From an uncultured Marinosulfonomonas sp. (GTDB lineage Bacteria; Pseudomonadota; Alphaproteobacteria; Rhodobacterales; Rhodobacteraceae): DNA of 39,233 bases. The notes beneath the pieces are model-generated. The model was not told the DNA's origin and searched no databases. It worked only from the letters and a program-made list of their open reading frames with translations. Location: positions 1 to 39,233 of the forward strand of contig CAMZKY010000037.1 of assembly GCA_947311455.1 (NCBI GenBank), read 5' to 3'. This document shows, one piece after another, positions 4,214-15,705 of the stretch. Each line of letters opens with the position of its first letter. The stretch's first letter is position 1. The position numbers were made by a program, and so were the translations under genes.

Positions 4214-7048
4214 TTAAAGCATGTCTTTCAAATACTGCCCCGTATAGCTGGCCTCGTTCTTGGCCACCTCTTCGGGCGTGCCCACAGCAACAATTTCGCC
4301 GCCGCCATCACCGCCTTCGGGGCCAATATCAATGATCCAGTCGGCGGTTTTTACCACATCCAGATTGTGCTCGATCACCACCACGGTATTCCTTTGATCA
4401 ACCAGCTCGTGCAACACCTCAAGCAGCTTGCGCACATCTTCGAAATGCAGGCCTGTGGTGGGTTCGTCCAGAATATAAAGCGTGCGCCCCGTGGAACGTT
4501 TGGCCAGCTCTTTTGAAAGTTTCACGCGCTGCGCTTCGCCGCCTGATAGCGTCGTCGCTTGCTGGCCCACTTTGATATAACCCAGACCAACCCGCATCAG
4601 CGCATCCATTTTATCGCGGATGGTAGGAACCGCAGCAAAAAATCCTTGGGCTTCTTCAACCGTCATATCAAGAACGTCTGCTATACTCTTGCCTTTAAAC
4701 AATATTTCCAATGTTTCACGATTGTATCTTTTGCCGCGGCAGGTTTCACATTCCACGTAAACATCGGGCAAAAAGTGCATCTCGATCTTGATCAAACCGT
4801 CGCCTTTGCAGGCCTCACAGCGCCCGCCTTTGACGTTAAATGAAAACCGCCCGGGTTTGTAGCCGCGGGTTTTGGATTCCGGCAGCCCCGCAAACCAGTC
4901 ACGGATCGGGGTAAAGGCTCCGGTATAGGTGGCCGGATTAGAGCGCGGCGTGCGCCCGATAGGCCGCTGATCAATGTCGATCACCTTGTCCAGATATTCC
5001 AGCCCTCTAATCGTTTCGCAGGGTGCAGGCGTTTGACGTGCACCGTTCAGGCGCATGCTTGCAGTTTTGAACAGGGTTTCGATTGTAAGGGTTGATTTAC
5101 CGCCCCCCGACACCCCCGTCACACAGGTGAATTTTCCCAACGGAAATTCCGCTGTAACCGATTTCAAATTGTTGCCCGTGGCGTTTACAATTTGAATTTT
5201 CTTTTTATTACCTTTGCGCCGTTCATTTGGCACATCAATCTTGCGGGTGCCTGCCAGGTATTGCCCCGTCAGGGATTTTTTATTCTTGATCACTTGCTTT
5301 GGCGTGCCTTCGGCGACCACTTCACCACCGTGCACCCCTGCCCCTGGGCCGATATCGAACACATAATCTGCAACGCGAATGGCCTCTTCGTCATGCTCTA
5401 CCACAATCACCGTATTGCCTTGATCGCGCAGGTTTTGAAGTGTTTCAAGCAGCCGCCCGTTATCGCGTTGATGCAAGCCGATGGATGGCTCGTCCAGCAC
5501 ATATAGAACACCCGTCAGCCCAGAACCAATCTGGCTGGCCAGCCGGATACGTTGGCTTTCACCACCGGACAACGTACCGGAATTGCGGCTAAGAGTGAGG
5601 TAATCAAGGCCGACATTGTTCAAAAAGCCCAGCCTTTCACGGATTTCTTTCAGGATGGCATTGGCAATCGCATTCTGTTGCTTGGTCAGGGTGTCGGGCA
5701 CTTGTTTGCACCAGTCAAACGCCTCTTTGATTGACATTTGCACCACCTGCCCTGCATGCATGTGATCGATTTTCACGGCCAAGGCCTCGGGGCGCAGACG
5801 GTAGCCGCCGCAGGTTTTGCAAGGGCGATTGTTTTGGTACCGTTCAAATTCTTCGCGGATCCAATTGCTATCGGTTTCGCGGTAACGCCGTTGCATATTC
5901 GGGATCACCCCCTCAAACCCGCGCGTGACCTCATAAACCCGCCCGCCTTCGTCGTAACGGAATTTGATTTCCTCGTCGCCGGAACCGTGCAGAAATACAT
6001 TCTGCACCTTTTTAGGAAGGTCTTTCCAGGGGGTGTTTTTGTCAAACTCAAAATGGCGTGCAATGGCCTCAATGGTTTGCAAAAAATATGGAGATTTCCC
6101 TTTACGCCAAGGCGCCAAGGCCCCGTTATATAAGGTTAAAGTTTGATCTGGCACCACCAGACGTTCATCGAAAAACAGCTCAGCCCCAAGCCCGTCACAA
6201 TCTGGGCAGGCCCCAAATGGTGCGTTAAACGAAAACAGCCGAGGCTCGATTTCGGGGATGGTGAAGCCCGACACGGGACAAGCGAATTTTTCGGAAAATA
6301 CGTGGCGATCCGGCTCGCTCTCTTTGGGAACCGTTTCCAAAATCGCGATGCCATCTGCCAGATCAAGGGCTGTGCGCAGGCTATCGGCAAGCCGCGTTTC
6401 CAGCCCTTCGCGAATGATAATCCGATCGACTACCACATCAATATCGTGGCGGAATTTCTTGTCCAGCGTGGGGGGATCTTCCAGTTCATAGAACGCGCCG
6501 TCAACCTTGATGCGTTGAAAACCCTGCTTGCGCAATTCGGCAAATTCCTTGCGGTATTCGCCTTTGCGATCCCGCACAATCGGAGCCAAAAGATAGGCGC
6601 GCAGCCCCTCTTCCATTCCCATGATCCGATCCACCATATCCTGCACTTGCTGGGCCTTGATCGGTTTGCCTGTGGCGGGGCTATAGGGGGTGCCAACGCG
6701 AGCAAACAGCAGGCGCAAATAGTCGTAAATTTCCGTAACCGTGCCAACAGTTGATCGCGGGTTTTTGCTAGTGGTTTTTTGTTCAATCGAAATCGCAGGG
6801 GACAGGCCGGAAATGTGATCCACATCCGGTTTTTCCATCATATCCAGAAATTGGCGTGCATAGGCGGACAAGGATTCAACATAACGGCGCTGCCCCTCGG
6901 CATAGATTGTGTCAAAGGCCAGCGAGGATTTTCCAGAACCGGACAGGCCAGTGATCACCACCAACTGATTGCGCGGAATATCCACGTCGATGTTTTTCAG
7001 ATTATGTTCGCGTGCACCGCGCACTTCGATGTTTTTTAACTCACCCAT
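4214..7048 (-). CDS. uvrA: UvrABC system protein A
   Basis: 944 aa; [38 protein letters not shown], paired LSGGE signatures, Zn-finger Cys motifs. Confidence 0.99.
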
Positions 7049-7113: not shown

Positions 7114-7128
7114 GAACAATAGGCGAAC
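7114..7128 (-). promoter_or_regulatory. putative LexA (SOS) box upstream of uvrA
   Basis: + strand GAAC-AATAGGC-GAAC, i.e. GTTC-N7-GTTC read toward uvrA, 66-80 bp upstream of its start; matches the alphaproteobacterial LexA direct-repeat motif. Confidence 0.75.
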
Positions 7129-7319: not shown

Positions 7320-7342
7320 TTGACATATTCATTATATTGAAT
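7320..7342 (+). promoter_or_regulatory. promoter -35 (TTGACA, 7320-7325) with overlapping ATTC-N8-GAAT operator (7327-7342)
   Basis: ttgaca t ATTC attatatt GAAT; exact inverted half-sites matching the recalled SqrR/BigR-type consensus, just upstream of the rhodanese gene. A convincing -10 hexamer was not identified. Confidence 0.6.
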
Positions 7343-7404
7343 ACATACGGCTTGTAACAGCAACAATACCCGCATCTGCAGGTCAATTGAACAGGAACAT
7401 TTTA

Positions 7405-7767
7405 ATGTTTAATCTATTCTCTCGCGGCCCTGCCGCTGGTCAACTTTCGGCAGCTGACGCGATCAAACTGGTTGCGGACGATGAAATGGTTTTGATTGAT
7501 GTGCGTGACATCAACGAAGTGAACCAAACGGGCCGAGCTGAAGGTGCGATCCATATCCCTTTGATGATGCTACGTTTTCAAGCCGATCCTCGCAATCCCG
7601 ACTTTAACAAAGCCTTGGATGTCAATAAAAAAGTTGGCGTTTACTGTGCAACGGGTGCCCGTTCCGGTATGGCTGCACAAATGCTGGGTCAGCTTGGATT
7701 TACCGATGTGCATAATATTGGCGGCCTCCAAAGCTGGTATGCGGCTGGTGGTAAAATCACCCGCTAA
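7405..7767 (+). CDS. rhodanese-like domain protein (single domain)
   Basis: VLIDVRDINEVNQTGRAEGAIHIPLMML; active-site loop CATGARS; ATG at 7405 preferred over the 7387 start. Confidence 0.9.
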   Translation: MFNLFSRGPAAGQLSAADAIKLVADDEMVLIDVRDINEVNQTGRAEGAIHIPLMMLRFQADPRNPDFNKALDVNKKVGVYCATGARSGMAAQMLGQLGFTDVHNIGGLQSWYAAGGKITR

Positions 7768-7827: not shown

Positions 7828-9222
7828 TTACATATGGATCACACGCCCATAAGCGTCCAATATGCTTTCGTGCATCATTTCCGACAGGGTTGGGTGCGGG
7901 AATACAGTGTTCATCAAGTCTTCTTCAGTGGTTTCAAGCTGGCGCCCCACCACATAGCCCTGAATCAATTCCGTCACTTCGGCACCAACCATATGTGCGC
8001 CCAGCAATTCGCCGGTTTTGGCGTCAAACACAGTTTTCACCATACCTTCAGGTTCCCCCAATGCGATGGCTTTGCCGTTGCCCATAAACGGAAAACGCCC
8101 GACTTTGATTTCATATCCCAATTCTTTGGCTTTTGCCTCGGTATAGCCTACGCTGGCCACCTGTGGCGTACAATAGGTGCAGCCCGCGATGCTTTCGGGG
8201 CGCACCGGATGGGGTTTACCGCCGGCGATCAATTCGGCCACCATAACGCCTTCGTGGCTGGCTTTGTGGGCAAGCCACGGTGCGCCGGCGATATCGCCAA
8301 TGGCAAACAAACCGTCCACACCCGTGCGGCAATACTCATCGACCACAACATGGGTGCGATCCAGTTTTACGCCTAAGGCTTCTAGCCCCAAATCTTCAAC
8401 ATTACCGACAATCCCCACCGCAGAAATCACCGTGTCAAATTCCATGGTTTCAACTTTGCCGCCAGTTTCAATATGGGCAACCACCTTGGATTTGCTGCGA
8501 TCCAGCTTTTTGACCATGGCTTTTTCCATGATTTTCATGCCTTGTTTGACAAACTGCTTTTTGGCGAATTTGGATATTTCCACATCTTCCACAGGCAGGA
8601 CACGATCCATCACCTCAACCACCGTGGTTTCAGCCCCCAGCGTGTTGTAAAAACTGGCAAATTCAATGCCAATCGCGCCCGATCCAATCACCAACAGCTT
8701 TTTGGGCATGTGTGGTGGATTCAAGGCGTGTTTATACGTCCAAACCCGTTCGCCGTCGGCCTCAAGCCCGGGCAATTCGCGCGCGCGCGCGCCAGTGGCA
8801 AGGATGATCGCAGGGGTGGTTAATTCTTCAACAGTCTTTTCAGTTTTCACCGTCACGCGGCCCTTGGCGGGGAGATGCGCCTGCCCCATCAGGACAGTGA
8901 TTTTGTTCTTTTTCATCAAATGGCCGATGCCACCAGATAGCTGCCCTGCCACCTGACGTGAACGTTTAACAACCGCGTTTAAATCAAAGTCAATTTTCGT
9001 GGCAGACAGTCCAAATTCCTTGGCGCGGTGCATCAGGTGAAACACTTCGGACGAGCGCAGCAAGGCTTTTGTTGGAATACAGCCCCAGTTCAGGCAAATG
9101 CCGCCCAGATGCTCGCGTTCAACAATAGCAACCTTTTTACCCAGTTGCGCAGCCCGAATAGCCGCAACATATCCGCCCGGGCCAGCCCCGATTACAATCA
9201 CATCATAAGCCGTTGTCGCCAT
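7828..9222 (-). CDS. lpdA: dihydrolipoyl dehydrogenase
   Basis: GGICLNWGCIPTKALL redox-disulfide motif, FAD/NAD GxGxxG motifs, C-terminal HPTLSEMMHE. Confidence 0.97.
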   Translation of the reverse strand: MATTAYDVIVIGAGPGGYVAAIRAAQLGKKVAIVEREHLGGICLNWGCIPTKALLRSSEVFHLMHRAKEFGLSATKIDFDLNAVVKRSRQVAGQLSGGIGHLMKKNKITVLMGQAHLPAKGRVTVKTEKTVEELTTPAIILATGARARELPGLEADGERVWTYKHALNPPHMPKKLLVIGSGAIGIEFASFYNTLGAETTVVEVMDRVLPVEDVEISKFAKKQFVKQGMKIMEKAMVKKLDRSKSKVVAHIETGGKVETMEFDTVISAVGIVGNVEDLGLEALGVKLDRTHVVVDEYCRTGVDGLFAIGDIAGAPWLAHKASHEGVMVAELIAGGKPHPVRPESIAGCTYCTPQVASVGYTEAKAKELGYEIKVGRFPFMGNGKAIALGEPEGMVKTVFDAKTGELLGAHMVGAEVTELIQGYVVGRQLETTEEDLMNTVFPHPTLSEMMHESILDAYGRVIHM

Positions 9223-11335: not shown

Positions 11336-12400
11336 TTAATGTCGCAATTCTTCTTTGGGAAATAAAATCGACGCATCCCCATAGGAAAAGAACCGATATT
11401 CATTTTCAATGGCATGATCATAGATTTTATCAATGATATCTTTGCCCATTAAGGCCGACACAAGCATCAAAAGCGTTGATTTGGGGAGGTGAAAATTTGT
11501 CATCAGCGCGTCGGCCACATTAAATCGAAACCCCGGTTTGATGAAAATATCGGTGCTACCGCGCCACGGCTCAATTTGGCCTGATCGCGCGGCTGTTTCG
11601 ATCAAACGCAACGCCGTGGTGCCAACGGGAATAATGCGCCCACCCTGCTTTTGGGTTTGGCGAATTTCGTCGGCGGCTTTTTGCGTTACTTCACCGCGTT
11701 CCGAGTGCATTTTGTGCTGGCTGACATCATCCACCTTCACCGGAAGAAATGTGCCCGCCCCGACATGCAAAGTAACATAGGTAAAATCAACGCCCATTTG
11801 CGTAAGCTTCTCAAGTAAAGGCCTATCAAAATGGAGCGACGCCGTCGGAGCGGCCACGGCGCCTTTGTTTTGGGCAAAAACGGTTTGATAATCCTCGGCA
11901 TCTTGGGTGTCGGCGGGGCGCAAGGCCGCAATATATGGGGGCAGTGGCATCGCCCCCACATTGTTTAAGGCGGTGTCAAATTCATCGCCGGTTAGATTAA
12001 ATTCCAAAACCGCTTCGCCGGCCACTTTTTCAACCAAACGGGCCTTGAAATCATCGGAAAAAACAATTTCCTCGTTTTCTTTCAACTTTTTTAGCGGCTT
12101 AATCAAAGCCAGCCACGTGCCATCGCTTCGCGGTTCGAGCAGCGTAACCTCGATCTTTGCTTGCCCCGCCCCTTGGGCTGACATCCGGTGACGCAAGCCA
12201 AACAAACGGGCGGGAATAACCTTTGTATCATTCAACACAAGCCGATCTCCGGCCTGCAAAACATCAACAAGATCAAAGACATGGCGATCAGAAATCCGGT
12301 CGCCTATGGCCACCAACAAACGCGAAGACGGGCGCGGTTTGGCCGGACGGGTGGCAATCAGGCTTTCCGGCAACTCAAAATCAAAATCCGAAAGCTTCAT
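11336..12400 (-). CDS. queA: S-adenosylmethionine:tRNA ribosyltransferase-isomerase
   Basis: [23 protein letters not shown]..., [33 protein letters not shown] overlap with upstream gene. Confidence 0.98.
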
Positions 12401-15400
12401 GGCGCGAGCTTTGGGGGGCGTTTGCGAAACAGATTCCGGAACATCCCGGGCGTAAGGAGCGAAAGCGGGTTCACTTTGATCTGAGGATCATCAGCAGAGC
12501 CCACCATCTTATAGTTAAACCCGATCAAGCCCTCGCCTTTACGCGTGAGAATGGCTCCGACACCGTTCAAGATATAAATCGGTGAAATCACGCCGCGCAT
12601 ATCAAGTGTTGAATTTTGCAAATTATAAATCCCGTCCATAGAAACCCCTATCGAGGCGCCGATTGCGCTGGCCGATGTGACGATCACTTGCTTTGGGGTC
12701 AAGCGAAATCGGCCTTCGTAACTATTAAAAACAATTCCTTGCCCGTTTAATTGTTCGAGCAGGCCAACAATACTGATCGCGCCAAGAATTCCAGCCATTG
12801 CCGGTGCACCGATGATTTTGATGTTTTTGCCTGCAAGGCTGCCATCATAAACCCCGTTTTCGCCTTTGCGCGGGATCAATGTCATATCCAGCGTGCCGCC
12901 ATGCGCCCGATCTAAAACCCCTGCAGATCGGTAAACACCGCCTGCATCCTTGGAAAGAATACGCACAGCGCTGCCGCCTTTGGTGGGTGTAACGGTTCCG
13001 CGTATACGCGCTCCGCCATTGATCCGTGCGGTGAACTTGCCGTTAAATCCGGGGTGCCGTTTGAATTCACCGCTAAAGTTGCTTAGAACAATACCTTCGG
13101 AAACGATAAGGCTGTCTAAATTCAGCACAAGTGTGGAATTTGATCTGCCCCCCCCGCCAGCTCCGCCAAAGCTGGTTTTTCGAATATCAACCCTTCCCGA
13201 CGACACAACAATATTTGGTGTTCTGTTTTTGCCGCGCCCAACAAGCTCAACCGCTGCATCCAACCACCCCGCCAGCCGAACACGTGAAAACCTTGCCGAT
13301 TTCAGGTCTCCGTTGGACGTGAGTGTCACTGAGCCTTTTGCTTTCAGGCCCGCGCCCTCCAAAACCAGATTATCAATATGTGGCACGTCGCCTAACGTAC
13401 CCGAAACATCAAGCAATCCTTTGCTGTTTTTGGCCATGCGCCACGCCAAATCCGCGATCCGAAGGCCAATGCGGTTTAAATCCGAAATCAAATGAAATTT
13501 CGGGGCCGCACCGCGCGCCAGATCAATTTCGATACGCGCTTGGCCCGCGCCTGAGACGCTTCCTTTCGGTAATCCGATGCCAAATTCAGTGACAAACCGT
13601 TGCGACAGCTCGATTGTGCCTTCAACGCGCGAATGACCATCGGATTTAGGCCCCAGTGCCTGACGCCACGCGCCCTGAATAGGCACCGTTCCAATCTGGC
13701 CTTTTCCTGCAATGACAATTTTTGTCGGGGTTGCGGTGACGGAAAGACGATCTGCGTGTAACACGCGGCCTTTGATGATCTTGTCGGTGCTTACATTGCG
13801 CAAAATCGCATCAACGTTGTAATCTACATCTTGTATTTCTATTTTTTTGGCCAACACCAGCCGGATTTGCGCGTCAATTTGTGCAACCCCTGTGGCTAAA
13901 TCAACCGGCTGACCTGCCTTTGACATTATGTTAAACGGTTTTTCATCCAGCAAAGACAGCGCCGCTGTTATCGGCCCTTTGGCTTTTAGAAACACATGCG
14001 CTTTTGCCGGAATTTGATTAATATCCGGGATTTGAAAAACAGTGCCCGCCGCATTAATCCGTCCGCCTTTGGGGGCCGTCACCACGCCTTGTGTCACGGT
14101 TAAGGTAAAGGTATTGTCGGTGATGGCAGCGTGTCCTTTGCCATGCTGAATCGGCGGAAGCGTTTTGACAAACCGCACATTTGCATCGTCTATCTCAAAG
14201 CTAAGGCCATAAATGGGTTTTTCGTGCGGTTTTAGCCGTAAAGCACCAATAACATTGAAAATATTTGCAGAATTTACGTTTTGTTCAAGCCAGGTTCGGG
14301 TTGGCGGAATGGCAACAACCGGCCATAATTCAAGCAGGCGCACAGGATCGATATTTGGCGCTTTTGCGTTCAATGAAACCTGCCAGCCGTTTGGCACCAC
14401 GCTGATCTCGCCATCGGCTTGATAAATGTATTCATCGTCTTCCAACACCAACTGCCCAATCGAAAGCGAGAACGGATCGAAATCCAGCTTCATATCAATC
14501 GCCCCGCCCGACATATTGATAGGGACGGCAAAGACACCATCAGGGTTTGCTGAAAGTTCGCTTATCCTGAATTGCCCCAGCAACGTTTTTGGAATGCCTT
14601 CTTCCAAATTACGAAGAAAGCCGGAGCCTTCTAAAACCAGGCTGCCTATTTCAGTTTTTACAGACAGTTCGTTAAACTCGATTTTTTGATGTTCGGCGTC
14701 GAACCCAAAATAAGCCCGTCCCGAATTAAACCCGAACGAGCGAGCGGTCTCGCTGGGTTTTAACAGCCCTTTGCCGATTTCAAGCGTGCCGTTTAGGCGG
14801 GAAATAAACCCATCCGTGCCTACTTCTGCTCTTAAAGCGCCAGAAATCGGGGCTTCCAATACGCCAAGCCACGCCAATGCAGGCACTTGGCTGGCCAAAT
14901 CGCGGGCCGCTATTCCATCCACCTTGGCGCCAATCAGGGCTTCTAATTCACCGATTTTCTTTTCGAAACTAAATTCTGTTGTGGCCGCTTGGTCTGATCC
15001 ATACCTGATATCAAATCCAACATTCACTTCGACCCGATCTTTGTCGTGAATAAGATTAAATCGCCCCTGCGAAATCAGCCAGTTTCGATCCACGCGCAAA
15101 TCTTCGTAGGCAACGGTAAGAGATGTGATATTCACCGTTTCCAAAGCCGCCATTTCGGGAATTTGGAACAACTTGTCAATCGTTTGCATGACGCGCGATA
15201 ACGAAACCTTTTCGATCGCCTGGTTGGTTGGCTCTATTTCTACATCCACACCAAAATCCAAAACGCCGTTTTGCGCACGGCGCACACTCACTTCGACGCC
15301 CGATAATTCAATCTGTCTCGGATGAAATTCACCCCGCAAAAGCGCTGATTTCGATAAAGACGCCTGAACCTTTTCGGAGCGGGAAATCAAAACGCCATCG

Positions 15401-15705
15401 GTATTGCGTCGTTCCAAATTGGTTACGGTGAAATTTGGGCGGAATTCCCGATCAAAATGAAGAAATATGTCGCCAAATGTTATTTGTCCATTGGGCGAGA
15501 TGATATCAAGCTGCTCTTGCACTTTTGCCCGCACCCATTCAGGGGTCGAAACCGATTTTCCGGATAAAACAAATGCCCCAAACCCAAGAAGCAATAGAAA
15601 GAACAACACCTTAAGAAATGGCCAAAGCCCAAAATACCTTGGCCCACGGCGTTTGCGGCGGGGCATCTTTTTTGCCGTGGTTTCTGGGGTGTTCTCGTTG
15701 CTCAT
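12397..15705 (-). CDS. AsmA-like / YhdP-type (DUF3971) large envelope protein
   Basis: 1102 aa; basic N-terminus plus a single TM ([20 protein letters not shown]), repeated beta-rich body, C-terminal AsmA-like region ([28 protein letters not shown]). Confidence 0.8.

Follow-up and report, generated by a model that had tools for sequence, protein, structure and literature searches.

The window, that is, the whole stretch of 39,233 nucleotides that was analysed, contains a stand-alone gene for a small rhodanese between uvrA and lpd. The genes and sites of this locus are the following.

7320 to 7325, plus strand: -35 hexamer TTGACA of the rhodanese promoter, read from the sequence; a TTnACA-like sequence is common at the same place in orthologous promoters.
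7327 to 7342, no strand assigned: ATTC-N8-GAAT operator (ATTCATTATATTGAAT), predicted for an ArsR repressor of the SqrR/SoxR/BigR group from an exact match, conservation and the published deduced RcSqrR site.
7342 to 7349, plus strand: weak -10 region, either TACATA (16 nt from the -35) or CATACG (18 nt from it), assigned by sequence and position.
7405 to 7767 (stop included), plus strand: single-domain rhodanese (sulfurtransferase) of 120 amino acids with the loop CATGARS and catalytic Cys81 (Pfam PF00581).
4214 to 7048, minus strand: uvrA, the divergent neighbour (UvrA Pfam domains).
7828 to 9222, minus strand: lpd (dihydrolipoyl dehydrogenase), the convergent neighbour (TIGR01350, 569 bits against a cut-off of 408.8).
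7114 to 7128, no strand assigned: GAAC-N7-GAAC box, an exact match, assigned to the divergent uvrA promoter and not to the operator.

The rhodanese starts with the ATG at 7405 and its product matches PF00581 with 59.4 bits in the Pfam profile search (cut-off 22.2), the nearest solved structure being 2hhg. The codon of the catalytic Cys81 lies at 7645-7647, and Cys81, Gly84 and Arg86 are invariant among nine aligned rhodanese orthologues. For comparison, 121 genomes of the family were searched and the 30 best rhodanese loci (window gene included) kept, almost all from different genera. uvrA is divergent from the rhodanese in 28 of these 30 loci and lpd is convergent with it in 20, and because of the convergent lpd the rhodanese forms a single-gene unit. 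The palindrome that concerns us here is 16 bp long, lies about 60 bp upstream of the gene and consists of ATTC (7327-7330), the spacer ATTATATT and GAAT (7339-7342). A single base separates it from TTGACA, which places it in the spacer between the -35 and the -10 element, upstream of the start codon. It should be noted here that the -10 of the window is weak. Its best hexamers match at three of six positions each by eye, and a promoter scan of the window gave no plus-strand sigma-70 call at the rhodanese promoter. Most relatives have a TATA-like sequence at the -10 place, unlike the window, whose right flank and -10 (ACATAC) deviate from the family consensus. The first-pass annotation, made from the letters alone, had described a single-domain rhodanese with an intact CATGARS loop, which the PF00581 match and the invariant Cys81 bear out, and had placed TTGACA directly before the palindrome, which holds with all its coordinates. 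The SqrR/BigR consensus named in it is the same as the published site, since ATTC-N8-GAAT is cited as the deduced RcSqrR recognition site, with a similar sequence in the ygaVP promoter (PMC9774250).

A match to this motif is no evidence by itself, as a single one is expected by chance. Shuffles of the 39-kb window gave 1.25 matches on average and at least one match in 67 of 100 cases. The host genome (2.6 Mb in 332 contigs, 85% complete) has 58 matches against about 84 expected when the shuffle rate of the window is scaled up, so that no genome-wide enrichment was found, and many of the matches inspected fall inside genes. These counts are what would be expected if a 4-N8-4 palindrome had simply arisen in AT-rich promoter DNA, and the case for an operator thus rests on conservation. 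Conservation in orthologous promoters had been proposed as a check, and it was found that 25 of the 30 promoters carry the exact box and four more carry it with one mismatch, so that 29 of 30 have it with no more than one mismatch. Shuffling these 200-bp regions 500 times with dinucleotides preserved gave 0.2 of 30 on average and never more than 2. Common descent means that the 30 promoters are not fully independent, yet they represent different genera and have diverged in the rest of their sequence. An unbiased count of every 4-Nk-4 dyad (gaps up to 20) put ATTC-N8-GAAT in first place with its 25 promoters. The next 18 loci by score (L177-L194) gave nine exact boxes and, when one mismatch is allowed, 12 in all; of the six boxless loci, three (L189, L192 and L194) have an N-terminus that suggests a different rhodanese group, though this was judged post hoc. 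The promoters of 20 lower-scoring paralogous rhodaneses (L197-L216) contain no exact box at all. Chance origin of the operator is refuted by the shuffle comparison, and with the paralogues also speaking against it we regard it as extremely improbable.

Position-specific counts over the orthologous promoters show a fixed core, a preference for A/T in the outer flank and an AT-rich stretch past the right half-site, and a TTnACA-like -35 overlaps or abuts the left half-site. These conserved surroundings indicate that the box occupies the promoter spacer, a position from which a bound repressor would exclude RNA polymerase. The same intergenic region contains the GAAC-N7-GAAC box at 7114-7128, which we take to be of the alphaproteobacterial LexA (SOS) type. 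Since it is kept with the divergent uvrA in 25 of the 30 loci, the region holds two conserved regulatory sites for two genes. Such a conserved box close by could mean that the rhodanese is mainly under SOS control. However, the box is much nearer to uvrA, 66 bp upstream of its start, than to the rhodanese -35, which is over 190 bp away, and in other loci it likewise occurs with a divergent uvrA; this makes SOS control of the rhodanese very improbable. A second GAAC-N7-GAAC at 14283-14297 (minus strand) lies within a large ORF (12397-15705) and is probably due to chance.

The host genome gives seven HTH_5 (ArsR-type) matches, and two of these proteins, encoded on contigs C157 and C201, belong to the SqrR group. 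The C157 regulator gene sits within soxV-soxS-soxR-soxT and the C201 gene adjoins soxB-soxC-soxD, the sox genes being named from sequence. Their ArsR helix-turn-helix (PF01022) scores 42.5 bits in C157 and 39.6 bits in C201 (cut-off 22), and over the aligned part they are 65% and 68% identical, respectively, to Rhodobacter capsulatus SqrR. The best solved relatives of both are the ArsR chains 6o8k-6o8o and 13ct (E = 7e-39 for C201, about 5e-35 for C157), which we take to be R. capsulatus SqrR, the structure table labelling them only as ArsR family. Alignment to 6o8k/13ct shows that both sensing cysteines (C41 and C107 of SqrR) are kept in the two proteins. In the recognition-helix segment STRQAAVSQQLARLRLEGLV the C201 protein is identical to RcSqrR at 20 of 20 positions and the C157 protein at 18 of 20. 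Both stay below the cut-off (155 bits) of the NCBIfam BigR equivalog NF040642, with 92.5 and 93.4 bits, and thus belong to the wider group and are not BigR in the strict sense. The sqrR/bigR homolog that the first-pass annotation had wished to see elsewhere in the genome is therefore present as two intact candidate repressors of the SqrR/BigR group. A complete genome of the same genus (G003) has the same two regulator genes about 11 kb apart, flanking one sox cluster. A regulator match was found in 29 of the 30 rhodanese-bearing genomes; G019 (91% complete), whose rhodanese site has one mismatch, gave none in the genome, and G068 (76% complete) gave a weaker match only. In the host, neither an exact box nor one with a single mismatch is seen in the promoter of the C201 regulator itself; the G003 counterpart has a one-mismatch box.

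Conservation alone names no protein, and a transcription factor of a different family could be reading the palindrome. Against this, the palindrome and the deduced SqrR site in the literature are the same (PMC9774250), sulfur-metabolism genes as well as soxX next to soxR have the box in front of them, and the ArsR match accompanies the rhodanese in 29 of 30 genomes. We consider another family unlikely. Judging from sequence and conservation, the 16-bp palindrome with high probability serves as the operator for an ArsR repressor of the SqrR/SoxR/BigR group that senses persulfides, and the rhodanese would be derepressed under reactive sulfur. In R. capsulatus the rhodanese rcc01557 is regulated by SqrR and goes up more than 10-fold with sulfide or upon disruption of sqrR, and SqrR is released from DNA after forming a tetrasulfide link (PMC9995734). 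From R. capsulatus we infer repressor binding, persulfide sensing and induction at the present locus. Without reactive sulfur, the reduced repressor dimer would block RNA polymerase by occupying the spacer between -35 and -10 of the rhodanese promoter. With rising levels of persulfides or polysulfides, the repressor's two conserved cysteines would become linked to each other by sulfur atoms, the cross-linked repressor would come off the DNA and the rhodanese would be produced, which in turn could move or drain sulfane sulfur.

The acting repressor may be the C201 protein (beside soxBCD), the soxS-linked C157 protein, or both. The operator had been called SqrR/BigR-type in the first-pass annotation. 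The assignment to the group stands, but the specific naming of SqrR does not, as sox-linked paralogues appear to share the box. Among 51 soxW-bearing SoxR loci, 36 have an exact ATTC-N8-GAAT to the soxX side of soxW, and the sox-linked paralogue (C157) very probably also reads this sequence, so that the box would not be SqrR-specific. With a box apparently common to paralogues of the SqrR/SoxR group, the operator alone cannot name SqrR over its sox-linked sister, a caution for any reading of the site. The sox-cluster sites (L061-L127) lie about 1.9 kb upstream of soxR. A variant palindrome, ATATTA-N8-TAATAT, is seen between soxV and soxS on host contig C157 (L013, about 176-198).

It could even be that only the sox-linked paralogue (SoxR, in soxV-soxS-soxR-soxT of C157) reads the box, which would put the rhodanese in a thiosulfate/sulfane-sulfur sox regulon and not in a separate SqrR regulon. 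The soxX-side boxes in the 36 loci imply that SoxR-context proteins very probably read the ATTC-N8-GAAT core; one genome (G060) has a single regulator, in sox context, together with an exact rhodanese box; and in a tree of 112 regulators, which are short proteins, those in SoxR context were not separated from the others. On the other side, C201 gives the host a second repressor, complete and with a DNA-reading helix that does not differ from that of RcSqrR, and SqrR of R. capsulatus controls a rhodanese (PMC9995734). The outer flanks also differ, being AAATTC...GAATTT at soxX-side sites and mostly ACATTC/ATATTC...GAATGT/GAATAT at rhodanese sites, and this difference is a possible discriminator between the sister repressors. 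Exclusive reading by SoxR is thus a serious possibility, though we think it rather doubtful. It is likely that both sister repressors read one box, for which there is a parallel in Hyphomicrobium.

In the host, intergenic exact boxes also precede genes for a TsoY-family protein, a PDO/Blh-like protein, an Mrp/ApbC paralogue, an EF-hand protein and a fructose-1,6-bisphosphatase-like protein, the last named from its sequence. The TsoY-family membrane protein matches NF047644 with 498 bits and its box is at G000:C66:1535-1550 (L135). The PDO/Blh-like metallo-beta-lactamase has Blh as its best NCBIfam match, under the cut-off of that model. In G003 exact boxes are found again before the orthologues of the rhodanese, PDO, TsoY, Mrp, EF-hand and FBPase genes, and further before TauE-like, YeeE/YedE-type (Sulf_transp, PF04143), periplasmic rhodanese, RND membrane-fusion-like and multihaem cytochrome-like genes, some of these G003 genes being named on the same basis. 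Across the family, TsoY promoters (L238-L256) carry an exact box in 14 of 19 cases, and in six there are two tandem boxes about 24-26 bp apart. The box of the Mrp/ApbC paralogue is at G000:C62:1550-1565 (L134), before a gene whose divergent neighbour in the host is rsgA-like, and the four closest orthologues of this C62 gene (L257-L260) have an exact box, while the common Mrp/ApbC copies across the family have no exact box in their promoters. Of 30 PDO promoters from across the family, only three have an exact box, two of these in same-genus genomes. Exact-box control of PDO is thus not family-wide and is largely limited to the genus. On balance we lean towards a family-wide persulfide regulon under two sister repressors with a common box; its core would consist of the uvrA-lpd rhodanese, TsoY (for which tandem boxes are frequent) and a dedicated iron-sulfur carrier, the Mrp/ApbC paralogue. 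If so, TsoY and an iron-sulfur carrier join the reactive-sulfur response.

The rhodanese operator adds a well-supported case to a known type of control, and only a few of the target genes are new. New are the conservation of the operator across the family at this uvrA-rhodanese-lpd locus and the prediction that TsoY and the Mrp paralogue are targets; in the literature searched we found no earlier report of family-wide operator conservation or of TsoY/Mrp targets, and no reported function for TsoY. The operator on a stand-alone rhodanese is a trait of the whole family and no peculiarity of a single genome, and its well-defined profile can be used for finding regulons in further genomes. For the TsoY family and the specialised Mrp paralogue, the predicted membership would be a first functional hint, towards the reactive-sulfur response.

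Among known systems, R. capsulatus SqrR with rcc01557 (PMC9995734) is alike in repressor type, sensing cysteines, DNA-reading helix, operator core and rhodanese target, the host rhodanese being a putative counterpart of rcc01557. The host differs from it in having two paralogous repressors near one sox cluster. YgaV of E. coli (PMC9774250) is likewise an ArsR repressor of the group; an ATTC-N8-GAAT-like box lies over the ygaVP promoter, and a rhodanese, YgaP, is among the targets. There the rhodanese is inside the operon of the repressor, whereas the host gene stands alone, flanked by uvrA and lpd. BigR of Xylella and Agrobacterium with Blh (PMC5823870), compared by repressor and target gene, is a related repressor and has a counterpart of its target in the PDO/Blh-like gene of the host, but the host PDO gene lies away from the repressor gene. 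Hyphomicrobium denitrificans, with SoxR and sHdrR (PMC12423496), also has two related sulfane-sulfur repressors per genome. The two Hyphomicrobium proteins bind the same fragments, as sHdrR attaches to DNA in which SoxR sites are present as well (PMC12423496). The second repressor of H. denitrificans serves the sHdr system, whereas the second copy of the host stands beside soxBCD, with the box on the rhodanese.
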